A model generated the notes under the pieces. The model had not been told where the DNA came from and did no database searches. It saw nothing but the letters and a program-made list of their open reading frames with translations. DNA of 64,000 nt from Halomonas rhizosphaerae (GTDB taxonomy: Bacteria; Pseudomonadota; Gammaproteobacteria; Pseudomonadales; Halomonadaceae): assembly GCF_030010555.1 (NCBI RefSeq), contig NZ_JASCQP010000007.1, forward strand, positions 62,001-126,000, in the 5' to 3' direction. Shown here piece after piece: positions 1 to 16,475 of the stretch (its first letter is position 1; every line of letters begins with the position of its first letter). Both the position numbers and the translations under genes were made by a program.

Positions 1-7
1 GGAAGAA

Positions 8-36
8 TTGCACCGCGAGGCTGAAATCACTACAAT
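8..36 (+). promoter_or_regulatory. Predicted sigma-70 promoter of rpmH
   Basis: A TTGCAC -35 box (8-13), a 17-bp spacer and a TACAAT -10 box (31-36) make a near-consensus promoter about 100 bp upstream of rpmH. It would drive rpmH and rnpA. The long leader (about 43-133) contains no recognisable gene. Inferred from sequence only. Confidence 0.65.
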
Positions 37-133
37 TTCCGGTCTTGAACCGAATACCCCCGGGTCCGCCAGCGGCATCCGGATGTCTCCGAATGATCGA
101 TTCGTTCCGAAAACCACGTGGGAATAACCAGTT

Positions 134-268
134 ATGAAACGTACTTTTCAACCCAGCGTCCTCAAGCGCAAGCGCGTGCATGGCTTCCGCGCGCGCATGG
201 CCACCAAGAATGGTCGTGCCGTTCTGGCCCGTCGCCGTGCCAAGGGCCGCAAGCGCCTGAGCGCCTGA
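134..268 (+). CDS. rpmH: 50S ribosomal protein L34
   Basis: Encodes a 44-residue, very basic protein of the large ribosomal subunit. It begins MKRTFQPS and ends KGRKRLSA, matching bacterial L34 over its whole length; the family is normally 44-46 residues. L34 binds 23S rRNA. The ATG at 134 is the only reasonable start. The gene is followed after 13 bp by rnpA, the near-universal rpmH-rnpA pair, and is preceded by a good promoter at 8-36. In many gammaproteobacteria dnaA lies just upstream on the other strand; that region is outside this window. Confidence 0.98.
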
Positions 269-281
269 CCGCGGCCCTCGC

Positions 282-698
282 GTGTCCAGTCAGGGCTATC
301 CCCGGCAGTTGCGACTGCTGACCGCCGGGGATTATCGACGTGTCTTCGAAACGGCTGCATTCAAGGTCCACGGCAAGGGGCTGATGGCCCTCGCCTCGCC
401 CAATGAGCGAGGTCATCCGCGTCTCGGCCTGATCTTCAGCAAGAAGAACGTCCGCAGAGCCGTCGACCGAAACCGCCTCAAGCGCATCGTGCGTGAATCC
501 ATCCGGCTTCAGCAGTATCGCCTGCCCTCGGTGGATATCGTGGTGCTGGCAAGACGAGGAGTCCATGAACTGGACAATGCCACCGTGCATCGTCAGCTCC
601 ACGGGATGTGGCGTCGCCTGGAGCGAGAGGCGCGCAGGTCGTCCTACGGGACGGACTTGCTCAGCCCGGAAAGCGGTGACGCGGGCCGCGAACGATGA
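282..698 (+). CDS. rnpA: Ribonuclease P protein component
   Basis: Protein cofactor of RNase P, which removes 5' leaders from precursor tRNAs. The 138-residue product carries the basic RNase P protein signature around residues 55-75, including KKNVRRAVDRNRLKRIVRES with the RNR core. Family length is about 115-140. The start is a GTG at 282; no better upstream start exists because rpmH ends at 268. The C-terminal 20 residues are probably disordered. It is translated from the rpmH transcript. A yidD gene usually follows rnpA but none is recognisable here. Confidence 0.96.
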   Translation: MSSQGYPRQLRLLTAGDYRRVFETAAFKVHGKGLMALASPNERGHPRLGLIFSKKNVRRAVDRNRLKRIVRESIRLQQYRLPSVDIVVLARRGVHELDNATVHRQLHGMWRRLEREARRSSYGTDLLSPESGDAGRER

Positions 699-813
699 CC
701 GGCACCCCTGCGTGCCGGTCCGTCCCGGCGCCGGCATGGGCATGACCACTGCCATCCTCGTTGCGCCCCTCCATGCTGACGCCTCGGATGCAGCCAGCCT
801 GCACGCGTTGTCC

Positions 814-835
814 AGCCTGCCTCCGGCAGGCTTTC
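814..835 (+). terminator. Possible rho-independent terminator after rnpA
   Basis: An 8-bp perfect stem (814-821 with 825-832, loop TCC) is followed by a short T run (TTTCGT). It lies in the 204-bp gap between rnpA and yidC and would end the rpmH-rnpA transcript. The gap otherwise holds no convincing gene. Confidence 0.5.
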
Positions 836-902
836 GTGTATCTCGGGTGGGCGACCTGCGTTGCACCATCGGAATGTTCACTACCCATCGGGCAGACCCC
901 TC

Positions 903-2600
903 ATGGACGTAAAACGACTTCTCCTCGTGATTCCCCTGGCGGTACTCGCCTACCTGCTGATCGTCCAGTGGAATCAGGACTACGGACAGGTGACCCCTGA
1001 GCCGCAAGCTCCCGCCATCACAAGCAGTGCCCAGGAAGGGGCTCGCCAGGACCAGGCGTCATCGGGCAGCGATGACCTCTCGGTCCCCGCGACCGCCGGC
1101 CCGGCGGACGACATGACCGGCGAGATCCCCGGCGAGGCCGCCTCTACCTCGGGCAGCCGTGACCTGGTGGCCGTCGTCACCGACGTGCTCGATGTCCGCA
1201 TCGACCCCCAGGGCGGGGACATCGTCTATGCGGCGCTGCCCCAGCACCGCTTCAGCCTCGACTCCGACCGACCCTATGTGCTGCTCTCCGACAGCGAGGG
1301 TCGCAGCTATGTGGCACGCTCAGGGCTTCAGCTCGAGGGCCACGAGGGACGCATCACCTTCACCCCCGAGTCGACCGAATACCGGCTGGGCGGGAACGAC
1401 GAGCGACTCGAGGTCGACCTGGCTGCCGAGGTGAATGGCGTGGAGGTGATCAAGCGCTTCACCTTCGAGCGTGACAGCTACGCGGTGGACGTGGACTACT
1501 TCCTGGCCAACAACACCGAGGAGCCGGTCACGGCCCGCTTCATCGGCCAGCTGGCCCGCGACAACAGCAGCGACCCCTCCAGCGGTCCGGCCCTGGGCAT
1601 GCAGTCCTTCCTCGGCGCCGCCTACTCGACCCCGGAGGATCGCTACCTGAAGGTCGACTTCGAGGAGATCCAGGAAGGCGCTTTCAACAACCGCGACGTC
1701 GAGGGGGGCTGGGTCGCCATCATCCAGCACTACTTCACCTCGGCCTGGGCCCCTGCCCAGAACCAGCAGAACCTCTTCTACGCCACCACCGACTCCCGCG
1801 GCCGCAACGTGGCCGCCTTCGCCGGCCCCACCAGCAGTGTGGCCGCCAACAGCGAGGCAGCGCTGGGGGCAACCCTCTACATGGGGCCCAAGGTGCAGGA
1901 GCGACTGGAGGCCGTGGCCCCCCACCTGGAGCTGACGGTGGACTTCGGCTGGCTGTGGTTCATCGCCAACCCGCTGTTCTGGTTGCTGGACCAGATCCAC
2001 GACCTGATCGGCAACTGGGGCTGGTCCATCGTCCTGCTGACCCTGCTGGTGAAGCTGGCCCTGTGGCCGCTCTCCGCCAAGGCCTACAAGTCCATGGCCC
2101 GCATGCGCAAGCTGGGCCCGGAGATGCAGCGCCTCAAGGAGCAGTTCGGCGACGACCGCCAGAAGATGTCCCAGGAGATGATGAAGTTCTACCAGAAGGA
2201 GAAGATCAATCCCCTGGGCGGCTGCCTGCCGATCCTGGTGCAGATGCCGGTATTCATCGCCCTCTACTGGATGCTGCTGGAATCCGTGGAGCTGCGCCAC
2301 GCACCCTTCATGTTCTGGATCCAGGACCTGTCGGTGAAGGATCCGTACTTCATCCTGCCGATCCTGATGGGCGCCTCGATGTTCGTCCAGCAGATGCTCA
2401 ACCCGACGCCTCCGGACCCCATGCAGGCGAAGATCATGAAGATGCTGCCGATCGTCTTCACCTTCTTCTTCCTGTGGTTCCCGGCCGGCCTGGTCATCTA
2501 CTGGGTGGTCAACAACTGCATCTCCATCGTTCAGCAGTATGCGATTACCCGCAAGATCGAGGCCGACCCGAGTATCGGCAAGGGCATGAAGACCAAGTAA
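903..2600 (+). CDS. yidC: Membrane protein insertase YidC
   Basis: Inner-membrane insertase that works with or without SecYEG, for example for ATP synthase subunits a and c, which are also encoded in this window. The 565-residue product has an N-terminal signal-anchor (about residues 4-21), a large periplasmic domain with an acidic low-complexity linker (about 25-90) and a C-terminal 60KD_IMP/Oxa1 core from about residue 345 with five membrane segments and a conserved cytoplasmic loop (KMSQEMMKFYQKEKINPLGGC). The ATG at 903 gives the typical MDVKRLLL start. A strong hairpin follows the stop codon. Length is normal for gammaproteobacteria (540-570). Confidence 0.97.
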   Translation: MDVKRLLLVIPLAVLAYLLIVQWNQDYGQVTPEPQAPAITSSAQEGARQDQASSGSDDLSVPATAGPADDMTGEIPGEAASTSGSRDLVAVVTDVLDVRIDPQGGDIVYAALPQHRFSLDSDRPYVLLSDSEGRSYVARSGLQLEGHEGRITFTPESTEYRLGGNDERLEVDLAAEVNGVEVIKRFTFERDSYAVDVDYFLANNTEEPVTARFIGQLARDNSSDPSSGPALGMQSFLGAAYSTPEDRYLKVDFEEIQEGAFNNRDVEGGWVAIIQHYFTSAWAPAQNQQNLFYATTDSRGRNVAAFAGPTSSVAANSEAALGATLYMGPKVQERLEAVAPHLELTVDFGWLWFIANPLFWLLDQIHDLIGNWGWSIVLLTLLVKLALWPLSAKAYKSMARMRKLGPEMQRLKEQFGDDRQKMSQEMMKFYQKEKINPLGGCLPILVQMPVFIALYWMLLESVELRHAPFMFWIQDLSVKDPYFILPILMGASMFVQQMLNPTPPDPMQAKIMKMLPIVFTFFFLWFPAGLVIYWVVNNCISIVQQYAITRKIEADPSIGKGMKTK

Positions 2601-2621
2601 CGCGGTGCTTCTCCCCGACAC

Positions 2622-2655
2622 CCAGACCCCCGCCCCGGCGGGGGTCTGGCGTTTG
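2622..2655 (+). terminator. Terminator hairpin after yidC
   Basis: A GC-rich perfect 13-bp inverted repeat (2622-2634 with 2637-2649) lies 21 bp after the yidC stop codon. The following GTTT is a weak T tract, so termination may be partial, with some read-through into mnmE. Confidence 0.6.
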
Positions 2656-2702
2656 CGGGGCCCGACCCGGACAATGTTTCCCTTCCAGCAGAGGTGCCGC
2701 CG

Positions 2703-4073
2703 ATGACCGCCAGTCTCCATGATCAGGACACCATCACCGCCCTGGCCACCCCTCCGGGACGCGGCGGCGTGGGCATCATCCGCGTCTCCGGGCCCGCCTG
2801 CACGACGATCGCCGAGGCCATGGTGGGCCACTGCCCGGCCCCGCGATACGCCCACTACGGCCCCTTCCACGGCGAATCCGCGGTAATCGACGAGGGCATC
2901 GCGCTGTTCTTCCCGGGGCCCCACTCCTTCACCGGCGAAGATGTCCTGGAACTGCAGGGGCATGGTGGCACGATGATCATGGACCTGCTGCTCGAGCGCT
3001 GCGTGCAGCTGGGGGCACGGCTCGCCCGCCCGGGGGAGTTCTCGGAGCGCGCCTTCCTCAACGACAAGCTGGACCTGGCCCAGGCCGAGGCCATTGCCGA
3101 CCTGATCGAGGCCAGTTCCCGGGGGGCGGCCGAGAACGCCCTGCGCTCCCTGCAGGGCGAGTTCTCGCGTCGCGTGGCGTCGCTGGTCCAGCGGCTGATC
3201 GAGCTGCGCATGTACGTCGAGGCGGCCATCGACTTCCCGGAGGAGGAGATCGACTTTCTCGCCGACGGGCATGTCGCCATCCGGCTGGCGGCGGTCCAGT
3301 CGGAACTGGCCGAGGTGCGGGCCGCCGCGGGTCAGGGGGCCCTGATGCGGGAAGGCATGAGCGTGGTGATCGCCGGGCGCCCCAATGCCGGCAAGTCGAG
3401 TCTGCTCAATGCGCTGACCGAGCAGGACACCGCCATCGTCACCGACATCGAGGGCACCACCCGGGACGTCCTCCGCGAGCATATCCACCTGGATGGCATG
3501 CCCCTGCACGTCATCGACACGGCCGGGCTGCGCGATACCCCGGACGCGGTGGAGAAGATCGGGGTGGCCCGGGCCTGGGAGGAGATCGAGAAGGCCGATC
3601 GCGTGCTGCTGATGGTGGATGCGGCTACCACCGAGGCCATCGACCCCATGGCCATCTGGCCCGAATTCGTCGCACGCCTTCGGGACCCCTCGCGGCTGAC
3701 GCTCGTGCGCAACAAGATTGACGCCAGCCACGAAGCCCCCGGCATCGATGCTGACGCCGCCACCCCGGTGATCCGGCTTTCGGCCAGGAGCGGCGCAGGG
3801 GTGGATGGCCTCAGGGAGCACCTCAAGGCGGTGATGGGCTATGCCGCCACCACAGAAGGGCGTTTCTCGGCCCGACGCCGGCATCTGGAGGCCCTGGACC
3901 GGGCCCGACAGGCCCTCGCCAACGGCGAGGCGCAGCTCGCCGGCTATGGGGCCGGTGAGCTGCTTGCCGAAGACCTGCGCGACGCCCAGCAGGCGCTGGG
4001 CGAGATCACCGGGGAGTTCAGCGCGGACGACCTGCTGGGTGAGATCTTCGGTAGCTTCTGTATCGGCAAGTAG
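2703..4073 (+). CDS. mnmE: tRNA uridine-5-carboxymethylaminomethyl(34) synthesis GTPase MnmE
   Basis: GTPase that, with MnmG (encoded at 19346-21250), modifies the wobble uridine of several tRNAs. The 456-residue product has the N-terminal tetrahydrofolate-binding domain, then a G domain with the P-loop GRPNAGKSS (about 224-232), TTRD, DTAGLRD and NKID motifs, and ends with the invariant CIGK needed for catalysis. The ATG at 2703 is chosen because GAGG at 2691-2694 is well spaced from it; a GTG at 2694 is in frame but overlaps that Shine-Dalgarno sequence. The last 13 codons and trailer are repeated downstream (see the repeat entry). The 3' end of this gene (thdF/trmE) is a known insertion site for genomic islands. 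Confidence 0.97.
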
Positions 4074-4347
4074 CCCCTTCCCGCAGGGCCGCGCCGACAG
4101 CGCGGTCGATACCACCCCCGCTGGGTGAGATCTTCGGCAGTTTCTGCATCGGCAAGTAGCCCCTTCCCGCAGGGCCGCGCTGACAGCGCGGTCGATACCA
4201 CCCCGCTGGGTGAGATCTTCGGTAGCTTCTGTATCGGCAAGTAGCCCCTTCCCGCAGGGCCGCGCTGACAGCGCGGTCGTTACCACCCCGCTGGGCGAGA
4301 TCTTCGGCAGTTTCTGTATCGGCAAGTAGCCCCTTCCCGCAGGGCCG
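4034..4347. repeat. Tandem array of four mnmE 3'-end units (85-86 bp)
   Basis: The last 13 codons of mnmE ([12 protein letters not shown] plus stop) and the following 46 bp recur in tandem: unit 1 at 4034-4119 (the real gene end), unit 2 at 4120-4204, unit 3 at 4205-4289 and a partial unit 4 at 4290-4347. The 40-bp coding part differs between copies only at third codon positions (GGT/GGC, AGC/AGT, TGT/TGC), so every copy still encodes the same peptide. Each spacer has a hairpin (CCGCGCT/AGCGCGG). The array fills the whole gap between mnmE and the convergent rlmJ. No integrase lies nearby. Confidence 0.95.
4056..4329 (+). other. Four attachment-site-like 18-mers
   Basis: Within the array an 18-bp core, TTCTGTATCGGCAAGTAG, occurs at 4056-4073, 4142-4159 (one C/T change), 4227-4244 and 4312-4329. 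It covers the final codons FCIGK and stop of mnmE. From memory it closely resembles the 18-bp direct repeats that bound SGI1-family integrative islands at the 3' end of thdF/mnmE. The likeness is an inference and cannot be aligned here; part of it is expected because the site lies in conserved coding sequence. Confidence 0.55.
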
Positions 4348-4352
4348 TCACC

Positions 4353-5201
4353 CTACTCCCCGACCCACCAGTCGCCATGATGGCGGCAGGTCGCGCCCAG
4401 CAGCGGCGTGACCTGCCGCATGGCCGCTTCCAGCCGCGTATCGAGCCCCCAGGGCGGATTGATCACCAACATGCCGCTGCCGACCATGCCACGCTCGCCC
4501 TCCTGGGGCTCGCGCAGCCTCAGCTCACTACGCCAGATCTTGCGCAGGCCGCCCTCGCGCAGGCCCTCCAGCAGCTCCCGATGGCGGCCGGCCGGCAGCA
4601 GGGGGTACCAGACCAGCACGACGGCATGGCGTGCCCTGCGCATGGCCTTGAGCACCGCATCAACCACCTCGCCATACTCCGCCTTGCGCTCGTAGCTGGG
4701 GTCGACCAGCACACAGAGCCGCGGGGTGGCCACCGGCAGGCACTTCACCAGCCCCTCGAGACCGTCACCATGGATGCGCTGAACATTGTCAGGCAGTGCC
4801 TGACGGGTCAGGTGGCCATGCTCTCCGGGGTGCAGCTCGAAGAGCATCAGCCGGTCACTGGCACGCAACCGGTCCGACAGCCACCATGGCGAGCCAGGAT
4901 AGTGGTCGAGAGTGCCGTCCCGTGCCTGGACCCGCCCGACCGCCGCGAGCCAGTCGCCGAGCAGCGGGTCGTCAGCCACGTGCGTTCTCGCCTGCCATAG
5001 CCGAGCAAAGCCCTTACGGTACTCCCCGAGCCTCGCGGTCTCCTCCGCCGCCAGCGGGTAGAGGCCGCGACCGGCATGGGTATCCATGTACGTAACAGGT
5101 GATTCCTTACGTAACAAATGATCGATGACCGCAAAAAGCGTCAGATGCTTGTGAACGTCGGCGAAATTGCCTGCATGATAGGCATGCTGATAGGAAAGCA
5201 T
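4353..5201 (-). CDS. rlmJ: 23S rRNA (adenine(2030)-N(6))-methyltransferase RlmJ
   Basis: S-adenosylmethionine-dependent methylation of A2030 in 23S rRNA. The 282-residue product starts MLSYQHAYHAGNFADVHKH, the hallmark N-terminus of the YhiR/RlmJ family, and ends with the family's INPPW segment. The ATG at 5201 is chosen over an in-frame codon 42 bp upstream because it restores this N-terminus. The catalytic motif, normally DPPYE, reads DPSYE here (about residue 166). No Shine-Dalgarno sequence precedes the start; the leader even reads TCTCCTT. It converges on mnmE, the repeat array lying between. Confidence 0.93.
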   Translation of the reverse strand: MLSYQHAYHAGNFADVHKHLTLFAVIDHLLRKESPVTYMDTHAGRGLYPLAAEETARLGEYRKGFARLWQARTHVADDPLLGDWLAAVGRVQARDGTLDHYPGSPWWLSDRLRASDRLMLFELHPGEHGHLTRQALPDNVQRIHGDGLEGLVKCLPVATPRLCVLVDPSYERKAEYGEVVDAVLKAMRRARHAVVLVWYPLLPAGRHRELLEGLREGGLRKIWRSELRLREPQEGERGMVGSGMLVINPPWGLDTRLEAAMRQVTPLLGATCRHHGDWWVGE

Positions 5202-5220
5202 GGAAGGAGATCCGTGAGTC

Positions 5221-5263
5221 GGCAAGACAAAAGGGCCCGTCACTGCCTTGCAGTGACGGGCCC
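5221..5263 (-). terminator. Rho-independent terminator of the OmpA-like gene
   Basis: A 13-bp perfect stem (5233-5245 with 5251-5263, loop CCTTG) is followed, read on the minus strand, by a T-rich run (TTTTGTCTT). It sits between the OmpA-like lipoprotein gene and rlmJ and should end the lipoprotein transcript. Confidence 0.85.
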
Positions 5264-5288
5264 GGGGTAAGGGCTTAAGGAAGCTTGC

Positions 5289-5972
5289 TTACTGCTCCTG
5301 GAAGCGGTCCTCGATGGGTGACAGGGTAACCTCCACCCGCCGGTTCTGAGCCCGGCCCTGCTCGGTGTCGTTGCTCGCCACCGGCTGGTTCTCACCATAG
5401 CCGCGCATGTTCAAGCGGTTGCGCGACACGCCGGACTGGGCCAGATAGTTGCCCACCGAATCGGCACGACGCTCGGAGAGCCGCTGGTTGTAACCGGCAT
5501 CACCGGTGCTGTCGGTATGGCCGGCGATATTGACCCGGGTGTCGGGATACTGCTGCAGCACCGAGGCCACGTCATTGAGGGCATTGCGCGCACCGGACGT
5601 CAGATCACTGGAGTCGAAATCGAAGGTTACCTCGCTCGGCATGTTGAGCACGATATCGTCACCGCGGCGATCAACGCCGATGCCGGTGCCTTGGGTGCTC
5701 TGACGCAGTTGCTCCTCCTGACGATCCATGTAGGCGCCGATGCCACCGCCGGCGGCGGCCCCCACGGCGGCGCCGATCAGGGCGCGATCGCGCCGGCTGG
5801 TGCTTCCGTCACCACTGAGGGCACCGGCAGCAGCGCCAACGGCGGCGCCGATGGCCGCCCCCGTCCCGGTCTGGCTACGCTGGGTCTCCCCGCTATAGGG
5901 GTCGGTGGTGGTACAGCCTACCAGCAGCGCGGCGGCGGCCAGGGGTGCAATCAGTCGGATCGATCTGCTCAT
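5289..5972 (-). CDS. OmpA-family lipoprotein (YiaD-like)
   Basis: Probable outer-membrane lipoprotein that binds peptidoglycan. The 227-residue product has a lipoprotein signal peptide with lipobox LVGC (Cys20), two glycine-zipper-like segments (GAAIGAAVGAAAGAL near 40 and ALIGAAVGAAAGGGIGA near 65), and a C-terminal OmpA domain from about 110 with the peptidoglycan-binding pattern (GHTDSTG, NQRLSERRA, NRRVEV). Layout and length match E. coli YiaD. It follows hemW by 30 bp on the same strand and has its own terminator. A purine-rich AAGAGGA Shine-Dalgarno precedes the ATG. Confidence 0.9.
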   Translation of the reverse strand: MSRSIRLIAPLAAAALLVGCTTTDPYSGETQRSQTGTGAAIGAAVGAAAGALSGDGSTSRRDRALIGAAVGAAAGGGIGAYMDRQEEQLRQSTQGTGIGVDRRGDDIVLNMPSEVTFDFDSSDLTSGARNALNDVASVLQQYPDTRVNIAGHTDSTGDAGYNQRLSERRADSVGNYLAQSGVSRNRLNMRGYGENQPVASNDTEQGRAQNRRVEVTLSPIEDRFQEQ

Positions 5973-6002
5973 GGTGTCCTCTTCTCCTTGGGTTGAGGAA
6001 TA

Positions 6003-7205
6003 TCATCCTTCACTGGCCCGCTCATCATCGATCAGAGCCAGCAGCTCGTTCAAGAATAGTAGACCTTGAGGTGATGCCCTAAGCCAGTCGGCATCTTCCA
6101 CAAGAAGTCCTTTTTCACGGGCCGCGACCAGCCTGGAGAGCAACGCCCGCGTCCCGCGACCCGTATGGGCCTTCCAGATCGACAGGGGTACCCCCTCCAC
6201 CAGGCGCAGGGCATTCATGGCGAATTCCAGCGGCAGCTCCCGCTCATCGATGTCGAATCGACCGGCAACGAATCCCCTCGGGTCATCGAGCCGGCGCAGG
6301 TAGGCATCGGGCAGTCGCGATTTCCAGCGGCGCTGGATCTGCAGGCCTTCGGCTCCCGGGACGCTGAGCTTGCCATGGGCACCGGCCCCGATCCCCAGAT
6401 AGTCGCCGAAGCGCCAGTAGTTGAGGTTGTGTCGCGAGCCCCGACCAGAACGGGCATAGGCGGAAATCTCGTAGCGCTCCAGGCCGGCGGCCTCCAGGCG
6501 CTCGTGTCCCAGGTCCTGGATGTCCCACAGGACCTCCTCCACGGGCAGCTCAGGCGGAAAGGCGTGGAATTCGGTATTGGGCTCCAAGGTCAGCTGGTAC
6601 CAGGACAGGTGCTCCGGGGAGAGCGAAAGGGCCTGGTCGAGATCGGCCAGCGCCAATGCCGGCGTCTGTTGGGGAAGGCCGTGCATCAGGTCGAGGTTGA
6701 GGTTGTCAAACCCCGCTTGACGCGCCTCCTCGACAGCCGCCACGGCATCGTCACCGCCATGGATACGTCCCAGGGCCGCCAGTTGCGCATCCTGGAAGCT
6801 CTGCACGCCCAGCGACAGGCGGTTGATCCCCGCCGCCCGGTAGCCGGCGAAACGTCCCCGCTCCAGGGTACCGGGGTTCGCTTCCAGGGTAATCTCGATG
6901 TCTGCTGCCAGCGGAAGCCGGCTCGCCACGGCCTGCAGCAGTCTCTCGTAGAAACCGGACGACATCAGGCTCGGAGTACCACCGCCGATGAAGATGCTCA
7001 CCAGCTCACGCTCCGCGGCCAGCGGCAGGTCGGCCTCGAGATCCGCGATCAGCGCCTCGAGGTAGCTCGCCTCGGGAAGTTCGGCGCTCCGCCCTACCCC
7101 GTGGGAGTTGAAATCGCAGTAGGGGCACTTGCGCACGCACCAGGGGACATGGACATAGAGCGAGAGCGGCGGCACTGCACGCGCAGACTCGTTAAGGGCG
7201 CTCAT
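6003..7205 (-). CDS. hemW: Radical SAM haem chaperone HemW (coproporphyrinogen III oxidase-like)
   Basis: Radical SAM protein related to HemN. The family is now viewed as haem chaperones rather than true coproporphyrinogen oxidases. The 400-residue product has the CxxxCxxC iron-sulphur motif at Cys23, Cys27 and Cys30 (CVRKCPYC), the GGGTPS motif, the ENxP-like segment (EANPGTL) and a C-terminal HemN domain. Its ATG overlaps the rdgB stop codon by 4 bp, so the two are translationally coupled, an arrangement shared with many gammaproteobacteria. Confidence 0.95.
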   Translation of the reverse strand: MSALNESARAVPPLSLYVHVPWCVRKCPYCDFNSHGVGRSAELPEASYLEALIADLEADLPLAAERELVSIFIGGGTPSLMSSGFYERLLQAVASRLPLAADIEITLEANPGTLERGRFAGYRAAGINRLSLGVQSFQDAQLAALGRIHGGDDAVAAVEEARQAGFDNLNLDLMHGLPQQTPALALADLDQALSLSPEHLSWYQLTLEPNTEFHAFPPELPVEEVLWDIQDLGHERLEAAGLERYEISAYARSGRGSRHNLNYWRFGDYLGIGAGAHGKLSVPGAEGLQIQRRWKSRLPDAYLRRLDDPRGFVAGRFDIDERELPLEFAMNALRLVEGVPLSIWKAHTGRGTRALLSRLVAAREKGLLVEDADWLRASPQGLLFLNELLALIDDERASEG

Positions 7206-7813
7206 GGACGATCTCGTCCGGCATCCATCGCCGCCACCAGCGCCTGCAGGGCCCGCCCGCGGTGGCTAAGCCGGTTCTTCTGCTCGGCGGTGAGCTCGGC
7301 GGCACTCGCTCCCTGGTCCGGGAGCCAGAAGAGCGGGTCATAGCCGAAGCCCCCCTCTCCACGGGGAGCCTGCAGGATCTCGCCTTCCCAGCTACGCTGC
7401 ACGATCAGCGGCACCGGGTCGTCGGCATGACGCAGCAGCACCAGCACGCACCAGTAGCGGGCCCGGCGACGCCCCTCCGGCACCTCGGCCAGGGACGCCA
7501 GCAGCTGGGCGTTATTGCGCGCATCGCTCTTCGGCTCACCCGCAAAGCGCGCGGAGTAGATGCCGGGCGCCCCGTTCAGGGCATCAACCTCCAGGCCGGA
7601 ATCATCAGCCAGGGCAGGCAGACCGCTCAGGCGACTGGCTTCCCGGGCCTTGAGGAGGGCGTTCTCGACGAAGGTCAGGCCGGTCTCCTCGACGTCGGCA
7701 ACGCCGTAGTCGGCCTGGGGCCGTACGTCGAAGCCCAGCGGCGCGAGCAGCTGATGAAACTCGCGCAGCTTGCCGGCATTGCCACTGGCCAGGACCAGCA
7801 GGGCTGGGGTCAT
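7202..7813 (-). CDS. rdgB: XTP/dITP diphosphatase (RdgB/HAM1 family)
   Basis: House-cleaning pyrophosphatase that removes non-canonical purine nucleotides (XTP, dITP) from the pool. The 203-residue product carries the substrate-binding SGNAGK motif (residues 10-15), FVENALLKAR, the acidic DDSGLEVDALNGAPG loop, GYDPLF and the C-terminal SHRGRA signature. Length matches the family (about 200). It is the first gene of a minus-strand pair with hemW, and perhaps a trio with the OmpA-like gene. Confidence 0.96.
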   Translation of the reverse strand: MTPALLVLASGNAGKLREFHQLLAPLGFDVRPQADYGVADVEETGLTFVENALLKAREASRLSGLPALADDSGLEVDALNGAPGIYSARFAGEPKSDARNNAQLLASLAEVPEGRRRARYWCVLVLLRHADDPVPLIVQRSWEGEILQAPRGEGGFGYDPLFWLPDQGASAAELTAEQKNRLSHRGRALQALVAAMDAGRDRP

Positions 7814-8219
7814 GGTCGGTTCTCCAGACGGTCAGGGGTCGCCCATTCTACGAGCCGACACCACAAGGGGGAACGGCTGGGCCAAGGAGTTGAAAGTATG
7901 TCATCCACAACAACTACTTTTCTCATTCTTAATTATGAGAAATTAAGTCGTTAAACCGCGAGCACCAGGATGAATTTCCTTGGCAGGCGGTATCGACGGC
8001 AGGGGTAGCCGAGCCCTCTTCCGGCGCCAAGTCATTGATCGCGCTAGGTGGCGGCCCAACTATAAACAAACGAAAACAAAAAAGCACATATTTATAACCA
8101 AAAGTTAGTAACGAAAAATTACATTATGCCCAAGACTAAGAGCCAGTGTGGCGCTTATGCCACAAATGGCTGATTGCCTCATAATGAAAGTTAACCGCGC
8201 CTTGCGAAGGGGTCGCACC
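7814..8219. promoter_or_regulatory. AT-rich intergenic region with nested palindromes
   Basis: This 406-bp gap between divergent rdgB and the CsgD/VpsT-like regulator is strikingly AT-rich from about 7890 to 8130 compared with the surrounding GC-rich DNA. It contains two interlocked inverted repeats: TTTCTCAT (7919-7926) with ATGAGAAA (7935-7942), and CTTAATT (7928-7934) with AATTAAG (7941-7947). No gene is evident. CsgD-type promoters in other bacteria have long, AT-rich, multi-regulator control regions; a comparable role is inferred. Confidence 0.5.
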
Positions 8220-8918
8220 ATGGAACAGGGGAAGAGCCTGGTGTTGCTGGTCACCGCCAACAACCCTCAGTCACAACTCTTCATCAACTATCTCCACGAT
8301 CAGCTCGACTGTCCGGTCTCGGTCGTCGCGCCGGGAACGGAGTGGAAGGGCAAGGATGCCTCGCCGACCGTGGTGCTGCTCGATGCGGATCATATCGACG
8401 AGGCCACCATGCAGCAGTGGCATGTCAGGGCGGCCGAGGCCGGCGACATGTCGCTGGCCGCCTTCAACCTGCGGGACGAGGAGCATGCCGTCGAGGTCCT
8501 CTCGGCCATGAACCTGCAGGGCGTCTTCTACCGCAGCGACTCGCTGGACATGATCTGCAAGGGGCTGAAGATCCTGCTGGAAGGCAACCTGTGGATGTCA
8601 CGCACGTTGATGACGCGGATGATCCAGTTCTTTCGCCGCCAGCAACTCAACTCCTATCGGCCGGTCTGCGGCCTGACCCACCGGGAACTGGAGATCATCG
8701 CCATGCTGGGTACGGGGGCCTCGAACATCGAGATCGCCGACCAGCTGTTCGTCAGCGAGCACACCGTCAAGTCCCATCTTTACAACATCTTCCGCAAGAT
8801 CAAGGTGCACAACCGCCTGCAGGCGGTGAACTGGGCCCGCCAGAACCTCGGTGCCCCGCCGCCGCTGGTGGGTCGCCGCCAGCGCGAGGCCAGTCACCAA
8901 CCACCCAACGGCACCTGA
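8220..8918 (+). CDS. LuxR-type regulator, CsgD/VpsT-like
   Basis: Probable master regulator of biofilm matrix genes. The 232-residue product has an N-terminal receiver-like domain (about 5-120), a linker with W125-M-S-R128 and a C-terminal LuxR helix-turn-helix (about 150-210; LTHRELEIIAML, IADQLFVSEHTVKSHL). W[F/L/M][T/S]R is the c-di-GMP-binding motif described for Vibrio VpsT, so this protein probably senses c-di-GMP rather than phosphorylation. The ATG at 8220 has AAGGGG about 8 bp upstream; a longer in-frame start at 8148 lacks support. No matrix operon lies nearby, so targets are probably elsewhere. It ends 7 bp from the convergent kinase gene. Confidence 0.85.
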   Translation: MEQGKSLVLLVTANNPQSQLFINYLHDQLDCPVSVVAPGTEWKGKDASPTVVLLDADHIDEATMQQWHVRAAEAGDMSLAAFNLRDEEHAVEVLSAMNLQGVFYRSDSLDMICKGLKILLEGNLWMSRTLMTRMIQFFRRQQLNSYRPVCGLTHRELEIIAMLGTGASNIEIADQLFVSEHTVKSHLYNIFRKIKVHNRLQAVNWARQNLGAPPPLVGRRQREASHQPPNGT

Positions 8919-8925
8919 GAGGTCC

Positions 8926-10173
8926 TCAGATCAGTCGCACGTGATCCTGGATCAGACCCGCCAGGGTCTCGGCGGCATTGTCCGCCGTGGTATCGAGGTG
9001 CAGCAGGTGCAGGCGCTCCTCGTCGCCGAAGGCCTCGAAGTCGGCCTGCTGGCGCGCCAGTATGGCGAGACTGTCCTCCACCGGGACGCTGTGACGCCGG
9101 GCGCGCTTGTCGATGCGCCGGTGCAGCGTGACGTCATCGGCCTCGAAGCTGACCAGCAGCACCGGCAGGCCACGGGCCTCGGCTTGCTGGCGCAGGAGAT
9201 CCCGCTGCTCCCGCTTCAGGAAGGTGCCATCGACGCAGGTCGGGAAACCCGCCTCCAGAAGCGTGCCGGCACATTCGGCCAGTCGACGATAGGTCCGCTC
9301 GGTGGCTTCCCGGGCAAAGATGTCCACAGGCGATTCCCTCACGACCGCCTGTGGATCGATGCCGTGAAGCCGTCGGCGCTCCACATCCGAACAGAGGCGA
9401 ACGGCCCCCAGACGACCGACGAGGGTCCGGGTGAAGCGGCTCTTGCCACTGCCCGAGACACCGATGCCGATGATCAGCGGCGGGAAGCGGAACTCGGCAT
9501 AGGCCTCGGCCAGGTCCAGGTACCCACGGCACTCCCGCATGGTCTCGGCCAGCAGGGCAGGGCGTTCGCCGTCCTCACCGGCAGCCTGATGGCGCTGCAG
9601 GGCGCGGCGCGCACCGGCCAGGGCCTCGACGACACGGAAGGCCGAGAGCAGGCGAGCCAGCCCATAGTCCCCGGACCGCCGCAGGTAGCCATCGAGGGCC
9701 TGGCGTGCCAGGCCGGTCTCGCCATGGGATTCCAGTCCCACCAGCAGCGAGGCCAGGTCGCTGCCCGGGTCGACGATGCCCTCCCACCCGGGCCCCTGGA
9801 GGTCCCGACCGATGGCATTGGCCAGCAGCACCCGACCCTGGTCGCAGAGCCGACTGTCGGGATGCGCGACGGCCCAGCTGGCCGCCAGCACGCGCTCCCG
9901 GCGTGCCAGGAAGACCGGCGCCAGTCGCGCGAGGTCCTGTTCGAGCCACTGCCGAAGACAGGCCAGACGCTGGCGATCCTCCTCCCCGGCGAGCAGCGGC
10001 TCGATGGCCGCCACTTCCCCGTCGAGGCGTTCCCGGAAGGCAGCCAGCCCGGCATCTTCGGGCCCAGCCGCGCCGCGCGAGCGGCGATGGAAGGCCACCA
10101 GCCGGTCGACCAGCTCCTCCAGCTGCAGCGCCTCCTCGCAGGAGGCCGCTTGATCGGCATCTGTCTGGCTCAT
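8926..10173 (-). CDS. P-loop kinase-like protein with degenerate phosphotransferase domain
   Basis: A 415-residue two-part protein. The C-terminal half (from about 232) is a zeta-toxin/gluconokinase-like P-loop kinase with Walker A GVSGSGKS (238-245). The N-terminal half resembles the aminoglycoside phosphotransferase-like domain of the bifunctional APH/ATP-binding family (usually about 500 residues) but is shorter. Where relatives have HGDLHxxN, this protein reads LCDQGRVLLAN (about 109-119), so the N-terminal domain is probably not catalytic. The substrate is unknown. It follows hemL by 29 bp and may be cotranscribed with it. GGGAG precedes the ATG. Confidence 0.75.
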   Translation of the reverse strand: MSQTDADQAASCEEALQLEELVDRLVAFHRRSRGAAGPEDAGLAAFRERLDGEVAAIEPLLAGEEDRQRLACLRQWLEQDLARLAPVFLARRERVLAASWAVAHPDSRLCDQGRVLLANAIGRDLQGPGWEGIVDPGSDLASLLVGLESHGETGLARQALDGYLRRSGDYGLARLLSAFRVVEALAGARRALQRHQAAGEDGERPALLAETMRECRGYLDLAEAYAEFRFPPLIIGIGVSGSGKSRFTRTLVGRLGAVRLCSDVERRRLHGIDPQAVVRESPVDIFAREATERTYRRLAECAGTLLEAGFPTCVDGTFLKREQRDLLRQQAEARGLPVLLVSFEADDVTLHRRIDKRARRHSVPVEDSLAILARQQADFEAFGDEERLHLLHLDTTADNAAETLAGLIQDHVRLI

Positions 10174-10202
10174 CTGGGGTCTCCCGTTATGGAGGTGGAG
10201 TC

Positions 10203-11492
10203 TCAGGCCGGCTTCATCGCCGCGAATGCCTTCTCGGCAGCGTCCAGGGTCAGCTGGATGTCCTCCGGGGCATGGGCACTGGACATGAAGCCCGCCTCGA
10301 AGGCCGACGGCGCCAGGTAGACCCCCTGGTCGAGCATCAGGGAGAAGAAGCGACGGAAGGCATCGGCATCGCAGGCGGTGGCCTGGGCGAAGTTGTCGAC
10401 CCGGCTCTGGCCGGTGAAGAAGATCCCGAACATGCCGCCGGCACGCTGGGTGATCATGTCGATACCCGCGGCATCGGCCCTCTCCTGAAGACCGTGGCAG
10501 AGGGTCTCGACCCGCTGCGCCAGGGCATCGTGAAAGCCCGGCTGGCGAAGCTTCCCGAGCAGGGTGATGCCGGCCGCCATGGCCAGCGGATTGCCGGAGA
10601 GGGTGCCGGCCTGGTAGACGGGACCGAGCGGCGAGATCACCTCCATGATCTCGCTACGACCGCCGAAGGCACCCACCGGCATGCCACCGCCGACGATCTT
10701 GCCCAGGCAGGTGAGGTCCGGCTCGATGCCGTAATGGGCCTGGGCGCCCCCCATCGCCACGCGGAAGCCGGTCATCACCTCGTCGAAGATCAGCACGCTG
10801 CCGTGCTGGTCGCAGACGCGCCGCAGGGTCTCCAGAAAGCCCGGCTGCGGCGGGATGCAGTTCATGTTGCCGGCCACCGGCTCGACGATGATGCAGGCCA
10901 CCTCGCTGCCGATCTCCTCGAAGCACTGCTCCACGGCATCGGGATCGTTGAAGGAGAGGGTCACGGTGTGCTCGGCCAGGGAGGCCGGCACCCCGGGGGA
11001 ACTGGGCTCACCGTGAGTGAGGGCGCCCGAGCCGGCCTTGACCAGCAGCGAGTCGGAGTGGCCGTGGTAGTTGCCCTCGAACTTGACGATCTTGTCGCGG
11101 CCGGTATAGCCGCGTGCCAGGCGAATCGCTGACATGGTGGCCTCGGTACCGGAATTGACCATGCGTACCATCTCGATGGTGGGGATCATCTCGCAGATCA
11201 GGTCGGCCATGGTGGTCTCGATGGCCGTGGGGGTGCCGAAGGAGAGGCCGCTGTCGAGCCGCTCACGCACCGCGCCCAGCACCTCGGGGTCGGCGTGACC
11301 GGTGATCATGGGCCCCCAGGAACCGACGTAGTCGACATAGCGCTTGCCCTCCACATCGAAGAGATAGGCGCCGCGGGCACGCTCCATGAACACCGGGGGA
11401 CGGTCCATCCCCTTGAAGGCGCGAACCGGCGAGTTGACCCCGCCGGGAATGTGGCGGCAGGCCTGCTCGAAGAGCTGTGCGGATGTGGTCAT
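10203..11492 (-). CDS. hemL: Glutamate-1-semialdehyde 2,1-aminomutase
   Basis: PLP enzyme converting glutamate-1-semialdehyde to 5-aminolevulinate, the C5 route to haem. The 429-residue product shows [10 protein letters not shown] near the N-terminus, the substrate-gating loop region, DEVMTGFR and the PLP lysine in [17 protein letters not shown]. The ATG at 11492 has AAGAGG upstream; the frame stays open further upstream but that extension is not family-like. Downstream on the same strand is the P-loop kinase-like gene; upstream are thiD and hemJ, the latter another haem gene. Confidence 0.97.
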
Positions 11493-11667
11493 GTCAACCT
11501 CTTGCCCTGTTGATGCGTGCCCGGCCAGGCGGGCTGTGGATAGATCTCTGGATAACCTCGTGACGGACAGTGAAGCGTCGGTGAATGTCGTCGAACGACG
11601 CTTGACCGCGCCTCTGCCGGTTCCGCCCCATTCTCGTCTGCCGGGGAAGCGATGACCAGCCCGCCCG

Positions 11668-12528
11668 TCATCCCGGCGGCGTCGCGGCGTCGATGGCGAG
11701 AAAGGCGGGCCGCGCCGGCAACTGCCAGAGGCGCCGCGGCAGCCGCTGGTCCTGCCCCGGCTGCCAGCCATGGGCCAGCGCCTGCCAGGTGAAGGCCTGC
11801 GCCTGCTCGCAGGCCGTGACCAGTGACTCGCCCGATGCCAGGCGCGCCGCCAGCGCACTCGCCAGGGTACAGCCGGAACCGTGGAAGCGCCCCCCGAGTC
11901 GCGGCCAGGTCCACTGCCGGCTGGTCTCCGGTGCATGCAGGGTATGTTCCACCCGGTCGGCCGGCACCCGTCCCGCGGGGTGGTCGGTGCCGGTGACCAG
12001 CAGGGCCTGGCAGCCGAGGGACATCAGCCTCACCGCCCGCTCGGTGTCATCGTCGAATTCGTCTCCCGCCAGCCGGGCCAGCTCCTGGCGGTTGGGTGTC
12101 AGGATATCCACATGCGGCAGCAGGTGACGGCACATGGCGTCGATGAGCTCGGCTGTGGACAAGTCACTGCCACCGCCGGCCCTCAGTACCGGATCCATCA
12201 CCACCGGTACCCCCGGCCGGCGCCGCATGATATCCACCACGGCATCCAGCACGGCGCCATCCGGCACCAGGCCAATCTTGATCGCGGCGATCTCGAAGTC
12301 GTCCAGGGCCGCCGCCATGGCGTACAGGTCAGCGGCGGACACGGGCCTCACCGCGCTCACGTCCCGGCAGTTCTGCACCGTCAGTGCCGTGGGCACGGTC
12401 AGCGCCCAACCGCCGCAGGCCGCCACCGCCTCGCTGTCGGCGACCAGGCCGGCACCGCCGGTGGGGTCGTGGCCGGACAGCACCAGCACCGTCGGCAGGT
12501 GGGGGGAGAGTTCAGGGGAATCGGCCAT
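11668..12528 (-). CDS. thiD: Hydroxymethylpyrimidine/phosphomethylpyrimidine kinase family protein
   Basis: Thiamine-pathway kinase family (ribokinase fold) acting on the HMP moiety. The 286-residue product has GHDPTGGAG near the N-terminus, LTVQN, the KIG motif, [16 protein letters not shown] and the anion hole/catalytic [12 protein letters not shown]. All are ThiD family signatures. The ATG at 12528 overlaps the hemJ stop codon by one base (TGATG), which implies coupling. The N-terminal extension and C-terminal tail are slightly long. No other thi gene is near, so the salvage role is inferred. Confidence 0.93.
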
Positions 12529-12959
12529 CAGAAGGGCTTCAGCACGGCCAGGAAGATGATCAGCAGCAGGGCGATCACCGGTAGCTCGTTGAACCAGCGA
12601 AAGAACACATGGCCGCGCCGACAGCGCGCTTCGGCGAACTGCTTCAGGTAGATCAGGCAGACATGGTGATAGCCCACCAGCAATACCACCAGCAGCAGCT
12701 TGGCATGGATCCAGCCCTGAGCGAACCAGGCGGGATTGAGCACCAGCAGGGCACCCCCGAACAGCAGCACGGCGATCATCGACGGCGTCATGATCCCGCG
12801 GTAGAGCTTGCGCTCCATCACCAGGAAGTGATCGATGGCCTGCTGTTCGCCCCTGTCCCGCGCCATGGCGTGGTAGACATAGAGGCGCGGCAGATAGAAC
12901 AGGGCGGCGAACCAGGTCACCATGGCCACCAGGTGCAGGGCCTTCATCCACAGATACAT
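12528..12959 (-). CDS. hemJ: Protoporphyrinogen IX oxidase HemJ
   Basis: Small integral membrane protein catalysing oxidation of protoporphyrinogen IX late in haem synthesis. The 143-residue product has four hydrophobic segments and the family landmarks: an early His in MKALHLVAMVTWFAALFYLPRLYVYHA and the conserved KLYRGIMTPSM segment. It was formerly annotated as UPF0093. It lies 9 bp downstream of the CLC gene and is one-base overlapped with thiD, within a minus-strand run that also holds hemL. Confidence 0.93.
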   Translation of the reverse strand: MYLWMKALHLVAMVTWFAALFYLPRLYVYHAMARDRGEQQAIDHFLVMERKLYRGIMTPSMIAVLLFGGALLVLNPAWFAQGWIHAKLLLVVLLVGYHHVCLIYLKQFAEARCRRGHVFFRWFNELPVIALLLIIFLAVLKPF

Positions 12960-12968
12960 GACGACTCC

Positions 12969-14741
12969 TCAGCCGTGGGTCGAATCGGAAAAGCGGTAGT
13001 AGCGCTCGATGGCGTCGCGGGTGATGATACCGGAAATCCGCTTCTGCTTCGGCCGGTGACCGTGCTCGACGTAGAGGGCATCCAGCGCCTTGTCGTTGAG
13101 CCGCTCGAAGGCCTCGGAGAGCGTCGCCTGCAGGTGGATCGGTGCCATGTCCAGGCGCTGGCCGGGGATCTCCAGCAGGTCCAGCAGGGCGCTGTCCTCC
13201 TCCGACTCGGGCGCATCATGCTCCAGCAGCCAGCGGGCCAGGTCGGCCGCCTTGAGCGCCAGGGTCGGCTTGTCGTCCGTGGAACGCTCGATCAGCACCC
13301 AGGCAGGATTGGACTCGAGCAGGACGCTGGCCTGATCACGGGTCACCATGCGCGAGGTCCGCACCAGGCTGCGCTCCATCACCGCCGGCACCGAGACCCG
13401 GGACAGTGCCTGCATCAGGGGCTGCTGCAGCGGGTGCAGCCCCTGACGGGTCTGGGTGAGGAAAAACCCCTGGCTGCGGCTCAGCTGCCGCGCCGTGAGG
13501 CCGGCCACCACCACCGCCAGCATCCCCGGCATGATGATGCCGGGATTGTGGGTGAGCTCGAGCAGGGCCATCAGGGCCGCCAGGGGCGCCTGCAGCACGG
13601 CCCCCATCATGGCGGCCATGCCGAGCAGGGCATAGACCTCGGGGGCCGAGGCCCCCACCGGCAGCAGGGCCTGGCCCGCCAGGCCGCACAGGGCACCGGC
13701 CGCACCGCCGACCACCAGGATGGGGCCGATGATGCTGATCGGGATGCCGCAGGCCACGGTGAAGGCCGTGAGCAGCAGCTTGCCGATGGCCACCGCCAGC
13801 AGCACGTCCACGGCGGCGGCCCCGCCCAGCGCCCGCTGCAGCGTGTCATAGCCCATCCCCTGCACCTCGGGGTACCACCAGGCGACCCCTGCCACCGCCA
13901 GCGCCGCCAGGGCGAAGCGCAGCGCCATGGGCAGCCGCTGAAGCCGTTCATGCCCCCGGGCCACGCGCACGAAGAGTGCCGCCAGCAGCCCGATCAGCAG
14001 GGCGCTGGCAAGGATCCAGGGTAGGTCCAGCAGGGATCTCAGGTGCAGGTCGGGGATGCCGATGGCGGGTTCGGGTCCGTAGACCAGCTGGGCCACCACG
14101 GCGCCCATGGACGACGCCAGGATCACCGGCATGAAGCCGATGATGGTGTACTCCATCATCACCACTTCCATGGCGAAGATGACGCCGGCGATGGGCGTAT
14201 TGAACGAGGCCGAAATGCCCGCTGCCGTGCCGCAGGCCACCAGCACCCTGAGACTGTTGTGGGGCAGGCGCAGGTACTGTCCCAGGCCGGTGGAGGCCGC
14301 CGCCCCCAGGTGGATGGCCGGCCCCTCGCGTCCGGCGGAAAGGCCACCGATCACCGACACCACGCCCACCCACCACTGGGCCAGCCAGTTGCGCAGCGGG
14401 AAGCGACCCTGATGATAGGTCAGCCGGTCGATGACGTGGACCACGCCGATACGCCGTCCCTCCGGCGGCAGGCGTATGAGCCACAGGCCGATCAGGGCCG
14501 CCGCAACCAGGGGCATCAGCACCCGCAGGGCCGACGGCAGGGCCTCGAAGGCCTCGGGGTCGCCGTCGGGAAACAGCAGCATGCCCCCCAGGGAAAGCAG
14601 CAGGCGGAATACCACCATCAGCCCGCCCGTCACCAGGCCCGACACCACACCCAGCACGCAGAGCTGCGGCAGGGCATCGACGTTGGCCAGCTGGCGACGG
14701 AAGCCTTCCAGGCTCAAGTCGGGTAGCGAGAGACGCGGCAC
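12969..14741 (-). CDS. CLC-family chloride channel/transporter with CBS domains
   Basis: Anion channel or Cl-/H+ exchanger of the inner membrane. The 590-residue product has about ten hydrophobic helices, the gating-glutamate motif [11 protein letters not shown] (about 140) and [22 protein letters not shown], then a cytoplasmic tail with two CBS-like halves (about 445-590). The helix-D motif that coordinates chloride in E. coli ClcA (GSGIP) is not present; the equivalent reads GVVHVI. The GGIFAP-type motif is replaced by [12 protein letters not shown]. Anion selectivity may therefore differ. It is the first gene of the run CLC-hemJ-thiD and divergent from argC. Confidence 0.9.
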
Positions 14742-14870
14742 GGCGACGATCCTGTTCGGCCTTGCTGGGGAAGACCCGCCAGGCTGGGCCTGGGTAGGTC
14801 GCGTCTCTCTTGTGTATCATATCCGGGGACACAGGTCCCAGCATCACGTCACCAATCCCAGGAGGCCATC

Positions 14871-15905
14871 GTGATCAAGGTCGGAATCGTCGGCGGCACC
14901 GGTTACACCGGCGTCGAACTGCTCAGGCTGCTGGCCCGTCACCCGGACGTGGCGGTGGACGCCATCACCTCGCGCTCCGAGGCCGGCATGGCCGTCAGCG
15001 AGCTCTATCCCAACCTGCGCGGCCACTACGATGACCTGGCCTTCAGCGAGCCCGATGCCGACCGGCTGGCCCGCTGCGATGCCGTCTTCTTCGCCACCCC
15101 CCACGGCGTGGCCCATGCCCTCGCCGGCGAGCTGCTCGACAGGGGCACCCGGGTCATCGACCTCTCGGCCGACTTCCGGCTGCGGGACACCGAGGAGTGG
15201 GCCCATTGGTACGGCCAGCCCCACGGCGCCCCCGAGCTGCTCGGCGAGGCGATCTACGGCCTGCCCGAAGTCAACCGCGAACGCATCCGCCAGGCGCGAC
15301 TGATCGCCGTGCCGGGCTGCTACCCCACCGCCGTGCAGCTCGGCCTGCTGCCGCTGCTGGAGGCGGGCGTGATCGATGCCGACCGGGTCATCGCCGACTG
15401 CAAGTCCGGGGTTACCGGGGCCGGCCGCGGCGCCAAGGTACCCTCGCTGCTGGCCGAGGCCAGCGAGTCCATGAAGGCCTATGGCGCCTCGGGCCACCGC
15501 CACCTGCCGGAGATCCGCCAGGGACTGGCGGATGCCGCCGGGGGCCCGGTGGAGGTGACCTTCGTGCCCCACCTGACGCCGATGATCCGCGGCATCCACG
15601 CCACCCTCTACGGCCGCCTGACCGCCGACCCCGGCGACCTCCAGGCGCTCTTCGAGCGGCGCTTCGCCAGTGAGCCCTTCGTCGACGTGATGCCGGCGGG
15701 CAGCCATCCCGAGACACGCAGCGTGAAGGGAGCCAACGTATGCCGCCTGGCCGTCCACCGTCCCGGTGACGGCGACACCGTGGTGGTGCTCTCGGTGATC
15801 GACAACCTGGTCAAGGGCGCCTCCGGTCAGGCCGTGCACAACCTCAACCTGATGTTCGGCCTCGACGAGTCGGCCGGCCTCGACGCCCCGGCCATCATGC
15901 CCTGA
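14871..15905 (+). CDS. argC: N-acetyl-gamma-glutamyl-phosphate reductase
   Basis: Third step of arginine synthesis: NADPH-dependent reduction of N-acetylglutamyl phosphate. The 344-residue product has the N-terminal nucleotide-binding [14 protein letters not shown], the catalytic cysteine in [12 protein letters not shown] and the family's C-terminal [15 protein letters not shown]. The start is GTG at 14871 with CAGGAGG 6 bp upstream. It is monocistronic or shares read-through with erpA about 100 bp downstream. A possible -10 element TATCAT lies at 14815-14820. Confidence 0.97.
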
Positions 15906-15936
15906 TACCCTCATCCAGGACACCCCCCCAACAAAG

Positions 15937-15966
15937 TTGACCCTTTTGCTGGGGATTGTGGATAAT
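15937..15966 (+). promoter_or_regulatory. Predicted erpA promoter
   Basis: TTGACC (15937-15942), an 18-bp spacer and GATAAT (15961-15966) lie 42 bp upstream of the erpA start. erpA is under IscR control in E. coli; no clear IscR site could be picked out by eye. Confidence 0.6.
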
Positions 15967-16007
15967 CCCCCCTGGCAAGACATTCATCGATCCAGGGGAG
16001 GTCACCC

Positions 16008-16361
16008 ATGAGCGGTGCCGAATCCTTCGTTCCCACCCCCTTGATGCTCTCGGATGGGGCCCGTGCCCGTCTCGCGGCGCTCATCGAGGAACAGGGCAAT
16101 CCCCGGCTCAAGCTGCGGGTCTACGTCACCGGTGGAGGCTGCTCGGGCTTCCAGTACGGCTTCGACTTCGCCGATGAGGTCGCCGACGACGACACCCTCG
16201 TCGAATTCGGCCGGGTGGCCCTGGTGGTCGACCCCCTCTCCTACCAGTATCTCGTCGGCTCCACCGTCGACTACGAGGAGGGGCTGGCCGGTGCCCGCTT
16301 CCTGGTGCAGAACCCCAACGCCACCACCACCTGCGGCTGCGGCGCCTCCTTCATGGTCTGA
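16008..16361 (+). CDS. erpA: Iron-sulphur cluster insertion protein ErpA
   Basis: A-type carrier that delivers [4Fe-4S] clusters to target proteins such as the isoprenoid enzymes. The 117-residue product has the three invariant cysteines in the family spacing: Cys45 in [11 protein letters not shown] and Cys109/Cys111 in [10 protein letters not shown]. The ATG at 16008 is preceded by AGGGGAGG. It stands alone between argC and an ABC transporter operon, as in many relatives. Confidence 0.97.
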
Positions 16362-16475
16362 CCGCCAGCGTTGGCTCAGCGACGACCGCACGCTTTTCCC
16401 TCCACTTGACGCTTCCCCGGGAACTCGCCATGGTTTAAGGCGTAATCCACAACAAATTCTTCCATGGGGAATCGT

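Follow-up and report, generated by a model that had tools for sequence, protein, structure and literature searches.

A recurrent tandem array of mnmE gene ends in Halomonas, a candidate variable-copy minisatellite at an integration hotspot

Why would a bacterial genome carry the end of one gene four times in a row? In Halomonas rhizosphaerae, the last 39 nt of mnmE occur at positions 4035-4073, 4121-4159, 4206-4244, and 4291-4329 of the 64,000-nt stretch of contig NZ_JASCQP010000007.1 that was analysed here (the window). All four copies give an identical 12-residue translation followed by a stop. The array lies behind mnmE (4035-4329), its units separated by three hairpin spacers of 47, 46, and 46 nt, and comprises the following features:

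2703-4073, plus strand: mnmE (trmE, thdF), encoding the tRNA modification GTPase, with its true 3' end in unit 1 (Pfam TrmE_N, MMR_HSR1, MnmE_helical)
4035-4073, plus strand: unit 1, the final 13 mnmE codons with the stop (sequence)
4074-4120, plus strand: spacer 1, 47 nt, hairpin at 4087-4107 (sequence, folding)
4121-4159, plus strand: unit 2, an mnmE-end copy with three synonymous differences from unit 1 (sequence)
4160-4205, plus strand: spacer 2, 46 nt, hairpin at 4173-4193 (sequence, folding)
4206-4244, plus strand: unit 3, coding part equal to that of unit 1 (sequence)
4245-4290, plus strand: spacer 3, 46 nt, hairpin at 4258-4278 (sequence, folding)
4291-4329, plus strand: unit 4, 39 nt equal to the true mnmE end of H. 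ventosae (G087) and also found in G067, with no hairpin after it
4330-4347, plus strand: post-stop stretch in common with the spacer starts, unique DNA beyond (sequence, TRF)
4353-5243, minus strand: rlmJ, convergent, its stop 23 nt past unit 4 (Pfam RsmJ/RlmJ on 4356-5201)

TRF reported the array as 4034-4347, with a period of 85, 3.7 copies, 94% matches, and a score of 563. The original prediction had described four units, each with a hairpin spacer. All four 39-nt copies are present, but there are only three spacers; the fourth unit breaks off at about 57 nt, with no hairpin behind it. Differences between the spacers consist of C/T and A/T changes and one extra C. Each spacer forms a GC-rich hairpin, with folding z-scores of -2.05 to -2.37 for three spacer stretches and -1.06 for the stretch of unit 1 plus most of spacer 1. 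A second repeat in the window, a perfect heptamer array (CCTTGCC, 13.4 copies, 41693-41786), is likely a length-variable tract.

Within its own genome, the window unit gave four matches at E<=0.001, every one at mnmE. TRF analysis of 46 mnmE-region sequences (957,444 bases) returned three arrays of period 38-130 and score at least 90, two of them at mnmE; the two-copy arrays of L034 and L037 fell below this cut, so the base rate is rough. For the draft contig of the window taken by itself, an assembly artefact is possible, but similar arrays are present in single-contig genomes (G002, G036, and G074). The mnmE-end array is real and recurrent.

To delineate its distribution, we searched 90 genomes of the same genus, one per species, and obtained the mnmE end from 88. 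Two incomplete genomes in which the mnmE end was not found (G063, G082) and the duplicate loci of one genome were left out of the counts. Units were called at up to 11 mismatches in 36 nt, with a chance expectation of about 0.014 hits. Two to five mnmE-end copies were present in 21 of the 88 genomes; G050 and G013, with one decayed copy each, stand outside these 21. Remnants were sought in the 28 genomes that have 25 nt or more behind mnmE; signals were clear for the same two (p 0.002) and weak for G021, G001, G033, and G007 (p 0.006-0.018, uncorrected for 28 tests). Repeat periods ranged from 77 to 111 nt, with an additional compact form of 43 nt. Most arrays begin at the same codon and most have a hairpin spacer. 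Among 36 downstream copies, the first 6 nt showed at most one mismatch to the genome's own unit 1 in 26, two in 4, and four in 6, and similarity upstream of this common start was rarely present.

A 27-nt end pattern searched with up to two mismatches matched at mnmE, except for one match on another contig of G079, where an apparent IS splits the array across two contig ends. At these ends (L161 and L190), an insertion element apparently interrupts unit 2. At the level of the order, several genomes had at least two matches to the exact 18-nt end pattern on one strand. Other DNA also lies between mnmE and rlmJ in the genus. An EAL-like gene (by eye) follows the last mnmE-end copy in G014 (L125/L191), and a repeat of about 175 bp in G054 and G076 (L008, L136) is a dispersed Halomonas repeat, with related pieces in L197, L203, L204, L178, and L198.

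Unit number varied among relatives, one of the checks attached to the original prediction. Four units here compare with two in H. ventosae (G000, the window genome, and G087; tree distance 0.14) and with a single copy in the close species G030 and G076. Similar differences separate G020 from G064 (four and one, distance 0.10) and G036 from G058 (two and one, distance 0.07). In single-copy G058, the 13 nt past the mnmE stop match the sequence after the last unit of G036 at 12 of 13 positions. Longer islands between units, which were to be looked for as well, were not seen in the genus, the single insert being the IS-like element that splits a G079 unit.

We then considered the coding part of the units. 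Their differences had been described as confined to third codon positions, and this was borne out: all four sites that vary are synonymous (two GGT/GGC codons, one AGC/AGT, and one TGT/TGC). Unit 1 equals unit 3, while units 2 and 4 have the linked pair GGC-AGT in common, giving an ABAB pattern. Given a neutral synonymous fraction of 0.21-0.36, the probability of this outcome is 0.002-0.017, so the argument that drift would not keep the peptide holds within the window. It fails genus-wide. Set against unit 1 of the same array, the 36 downstream copies carry 65 synonymous and 91 non-synonymous changes in total, and nine of them no longer have the stop. The average pair of real mnmE ends among the 88 genomes is separated by 3.47 synonymous changes and 0.11 non-synonymous ones. 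The peptide in downstream copies is not under selection in general. We infer that young copies look intact through recent service as the real end, or through copying from it.

Sequence identities between species bear on this point. The 39 nt of unit 4 are exactly those that close the real mnmE gene of H. ventosae (G087/L034), which makes the units look like real ends that were once in use or were exchanged, as had been proposed; this identity possibly reflects homoplasy, since G067, a distant genome, has the same 39 nt. A 27-nt stretch of unit 2 agrees with the real end of G076. The arrays can be accounted for without the further proposal, repeated capture of ends from different alleles. Within one array, spacers are of one type (by eye), and downstream units averaged 4.3 mismatches to their own unit 1 and 5.7 to the unit 1 of other species, a comparison that includes units of the same array, which are not independent. 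A median of 14% of other genomes were closer to a downstream unit than its own unit 1. One spacer type per array and copies nearer their own gene end indicate local amplification. In G074 and in G035, units 2 and 3 are identical including their spacers, as after recent duplication. An exception is unit 2 of G014, with 10 mismatches to its own gene end and 98% of other genomes closer.

Our preferred reading, which we hold at a probability of roughly 0.55, is that the array is a scar-seeded, variable-copy minisatellite whose unit contains the functional mnmE end and is gained or lost by recombination between ends. First, on one or a few occasions among the ancestors of Halomonas, a short hairpin-bearing stretch would have come between two mnmE ends. 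An insertion at the mnmE 3' end, which is a known attachment site, may have left it there, any cargo being lost later. Second, recombination or slippage between the 39-nt repeats would add or remove whole units in each lineage, as the copy patterns suggest. The first unit would stay intact if the exchanged copies are intact, and mnmE would then keep working. Third, the real end and the downstream units would keep exchanging, and downstream units would decay where exchange stops. Such exchange would explain why young arrays differ only synonymously and yet hold more than one form of the end. The identical adjacent units, the single spacer type per array, and the closeness of copies to their own end argue for the recombination step. 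The relaxed state of the copies, set against the constraint on real ends, counts for a minisatellite.

Several observations fit this reading less well. The distance of G014 unit 2 from its own gene end is unexplained by a neutral repeat. A general decay gradient along arrays was looked for and is not evident; of 10 arrays with at least three units, 5 have a last unit more distant from unit 1 than the inner units are, 4 show no difference, and in 1 the last unit is the nearer. As a separate question, a duplication extending upstream into the codons for ADDL was examined because type-A spacers end in CCCGAYGGCTG; only G074 gave a signal (p 0.017-0.04) among 19 arrays with hairpin-length spacers, and we make no such claim.

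We next turned to the spacers. Across the genus they measure 38-72 nt, except in the 43-nt units, where they are 4 nt long, and the hairpin mostly lies about 16 nt upstream of the next copy. We sorted hairpin spacers by eye into four types. Type A is the most widespread and is common to distant clades, while types B and C are each confined to one clade. Among 19 spacers, hairpin pairing was kept in 85.4% of cells, compared to 80.0% after shuffling (1 of 500 shuffles as high), and three pairs had changed on both sides. These values would suit an array kept for function, with the hairpin as a terminator between mnmE and rlmJ or the copies as spare attachment sites that absorb islands. We consider this very improbable. 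Covariation is weak, as 138 of 500 shuffles reach three such pairs and 28 of 500 reach the observed score. The two terminator-like sites fall in mnmE ends (4032-4054 and 4290-4308), away from the spacer hairpins. A second unit is absent from 67 of the 88 genomes, and the 4-nt spacers of G068 and G077 have no hairpin. No Rfam match at gathering scores was found in window positions 1-20,000.

Two other origins of short hairpin DNA were rejected. A dispersed hairpin repeat (REP) is contradicted by strong unit and spacer matches occurring only at mnmE; for type-A spacers, this applied to all matches below 1e-5 in the 90 genomes. An integron cassette would carry attC core sites, with the motif GTTRRRY. 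The 3,085-base stretch around the array contains none, with 2.2 expected by chance.

How arrays are distributed among hosts bears on whether one ancestral event could suffice. We placed presence on an mnmE-rlmJ tree of the 88 genomes, built by a quick method with 12 rows represented by mnmE only; 23 rows counted as array-present, including the decayed G050 and G013. Presence required 15 changes, and well-supported branches force 11 of these. Shuffled labels required a mean of 20.6, with 0 of 500 as low, and this clustering indicates a vertical component. Spacer distance also tracked host distance (20 genomes; Mantel r 0.33, p 0.002). Mean spacer identity was 0.89 below a host distance of 0.15 and about 0.68, with wide spread, beyond 0.3. 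Such clustering and correlation, together with the single-clade types B and C, would be expected from plain tandem duplication, that is, slippage at a hairpin in a Halomonas ancestor followed by descent, decay, and loss without mobile DNA.

We regard this explanation as possible but doubtful. Of the 67 genomes that lack a second unit, 39 have the stops of mnmE and rlmJ 3-21 nt apart, leaving no room for a unit; the hairpin thus belongs to the added unit rather than to the native gene end and needs a source. The common unit start would be explained by one origin, but a single gain costs 22 losses on the tree as drawn. Type A, moreover, occurs in distant clades at identities of up to 92-93%. Its cores are 69-92% identical between hosts that agree at 49-60% of 4-fold sites, and between G074 and G086 the core is identical at 36 of 39 positions compared to 0.53 at 4-fold sites. 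For some type-A spacers, identity was 0.93 at a host distance of 0.78 and again at 0.14. This conservation could stem from selection, horizontal transfer, or both, and in asking for either it also speaks against a neutral repeat. The main weaknesses of the minisatellite reading are the conserved type-A spacer, the many gains and losses, and the lack of a clear decay gradient.

The location of the arrays suggests where a first hairpin-bearing stretch may have come from. Passages of PMC3285670 and PMC9035990 give the attB of SGI1-type elements as the last 18 bp of trmE/mnmE. The corresponding 18-nt core, TTYTGYATHGGNAARTRR, is present in all four window units, which counts for the seeding step. 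Tandem integrations at trmE/mnmE are documented in parts of the same two papers, and a section of the review PMC5704250 describes how decayed mobilizable elements retain their two att sites and how incoming elements add to them.

To see what occupies this site outside the genus, we counted the exact 18-nt end pattern in 275 genomes of the family, a search that decayed copies would escape. At least 13 genomes of other genera had two or more matches, with the second copy at least 1.5 kb off or on another contig. Inserts of 2-23 kb in G118, G154, G155, G156, G197, and G238 repeat only the 18-bp core. As these inserts in sister genera do not repeat 39 nt, they leave the seeding step weak. An integrase in a sister genus was confirmed for L041 only (P0001, Pfam Phage_integrase). 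There, in Modicisalibacter xianhensis, a tyrosine integrase gene lies directly behind mnmE (L041:11539-12726); relatives 99% identical, one of them partial, occur in G184 and G187 of another genus.

A gene-bearing insert was found in the Salinicola group. In G178 and G191, a 1.5-kb insert at mnmE consists of a Fic/DUF4172 gene, a hairpin, and a 50-52-bp mnmE-end copy:

L221:1527-2765 (G191) and L231 (G178): Fic/DUF4172 insert flanked by 50-52-bp mnmE ends (Pfam for G191, tblastn for G178)

The genus code of these genomes (g20) includes genomes that match named Salinicola loci in the sequence behind mnmE. In the relative G179 (L278) the site is empty, and the DNA that follows it is closely similar. 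In G180, G184, G188, and G189, the fetched stretch holds the Fic gene and no second mnmE-end copy; in G183 and G190, similar DNA lies right behind mnmE and the Fic gene is absent from the fetched stretch. A second mnmE-end copy flanking a gene was present in 2 of 43 testable family loci (L221 and L231; 44 given, with a reach of up to 1.5 kb). Swapped halves of the two mnmE ends at the G191 insert were considered, but the case is weak, as only G189 among the Fic-bearing relatives ends in TAA like the first G191 copy; G180, G184, and G188 end in TGA. This insert shows that gene end, payload, hairpin, and gene end can arise in this order at the mnmE site, and with its empty site it counts for the seeding step. 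For the Halomonas unit, it offers a parallel rather than proof of origin.

The same insert would also suit a mobile unit. The original prediction had raised a tiny cassette with a target-restoring 3' end, which may be pictured as a non-autonomous element of 77-111 bp, made of the hairpin and an mnmE-end copy and inserted at the mnmE attachment site by an integrase acting in trans. We judge this unlikely. It is improbable, too, that each entry restored the gene end and pushed older units downstream as a record of past entries. That the Salinicola-group insert is the same kind of cassette with cargo, the Halomonas unit being an exceptionally small integrating version, would likewise surprise us. 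Patchy presence (the 15 changes, 11 forced), some type-A spacers as alike at long as at short host distance, an established attB at which tandem islands and accretion have been described, and the gene-bearing version with its empty site all agree with such an element. Against it, units are nearer to their own host's codons than to those of others, arrays with mixed spacer types were not seen, and units do not generally decay with distance from the gene. A DNA circle of 85 bp is also mechanically awkward.

A carrier or integrase was also sought. The window array had no match in plasmids or phages, and two exact patterns (the mnmE end and the type-A hairpin) had none in viral contigs, results that suit plain duplication and speak against a cassette. 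Relatives of P0001, one mnmE-site integrase, were found in 0 of the 90 genus genomes at E<=1e-30, a further point against it. At E<=1e-20, the same query was found in 5 of 10 listed family genomes; G156 and G090, whose matches have equal coordinates, look like a single genome, and the match in G197 covers only 55 residues, too few to pass at 1e-30. No integrase was seen by eye among the first ORFs, up to five each, of 19 mnmE-downstream stretches of the genus (7-20 kb). Overall, the original prediction was supported in part.

In these arrays the functional end of a conserved gene is the repeated element, and they recur at one integration hotspot across the genus. If recombination drives them, the last mnmE codons are reshuffled repeatedly without harm, and the locus offers a simple system in which to measure how bacteria recombine short repeats. 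Were they driven by an integrase acting in trans, the mobile unit would be far smaller than the kb-sized islands known at mnmE. In either case, gene-end repeats at integration hotspots are not necessarily island boundaries. Among the open-licence papers listed, none described mnmE-end arrays in Halomonas in its title or opening abstract lines.

Among known systems, the SGI1-related integrative mobilizable elements SGI1, PGI1, PGI2, and AGI1 use the same target, and their attB lies inside every window unit. They are kb-sized, carry an integrase, and are bounded by 18-bp repeats, whereas the array has 39-nt repeats and spacers below 75 nt, too short for an internal integrase. REP and REPIN sequences are, like the array spacers, short hairpin DNA adjoining gene ends; the array spacers differ in not being dispersed. 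The likeness to CIMEs and accretion, as portrayed in part of PMC5704250, lies in cargo-less stretches between gene-end copies, arranged in tandem. CIMEs are remnants of ICEs or IMEs; for the array, whose architecture would fit, an origin by decay of an island is hypothetical. Like a minisatellite or VNTR, it consists of head-to-tail repeats of about 85 bp (TRF score 563) whose number varies between close relatives, from 1 to 5 between species. It departs from this class in that its unit holds a functional gene end and mostly a hairpin spacer, and in occupying one site genus-wide.
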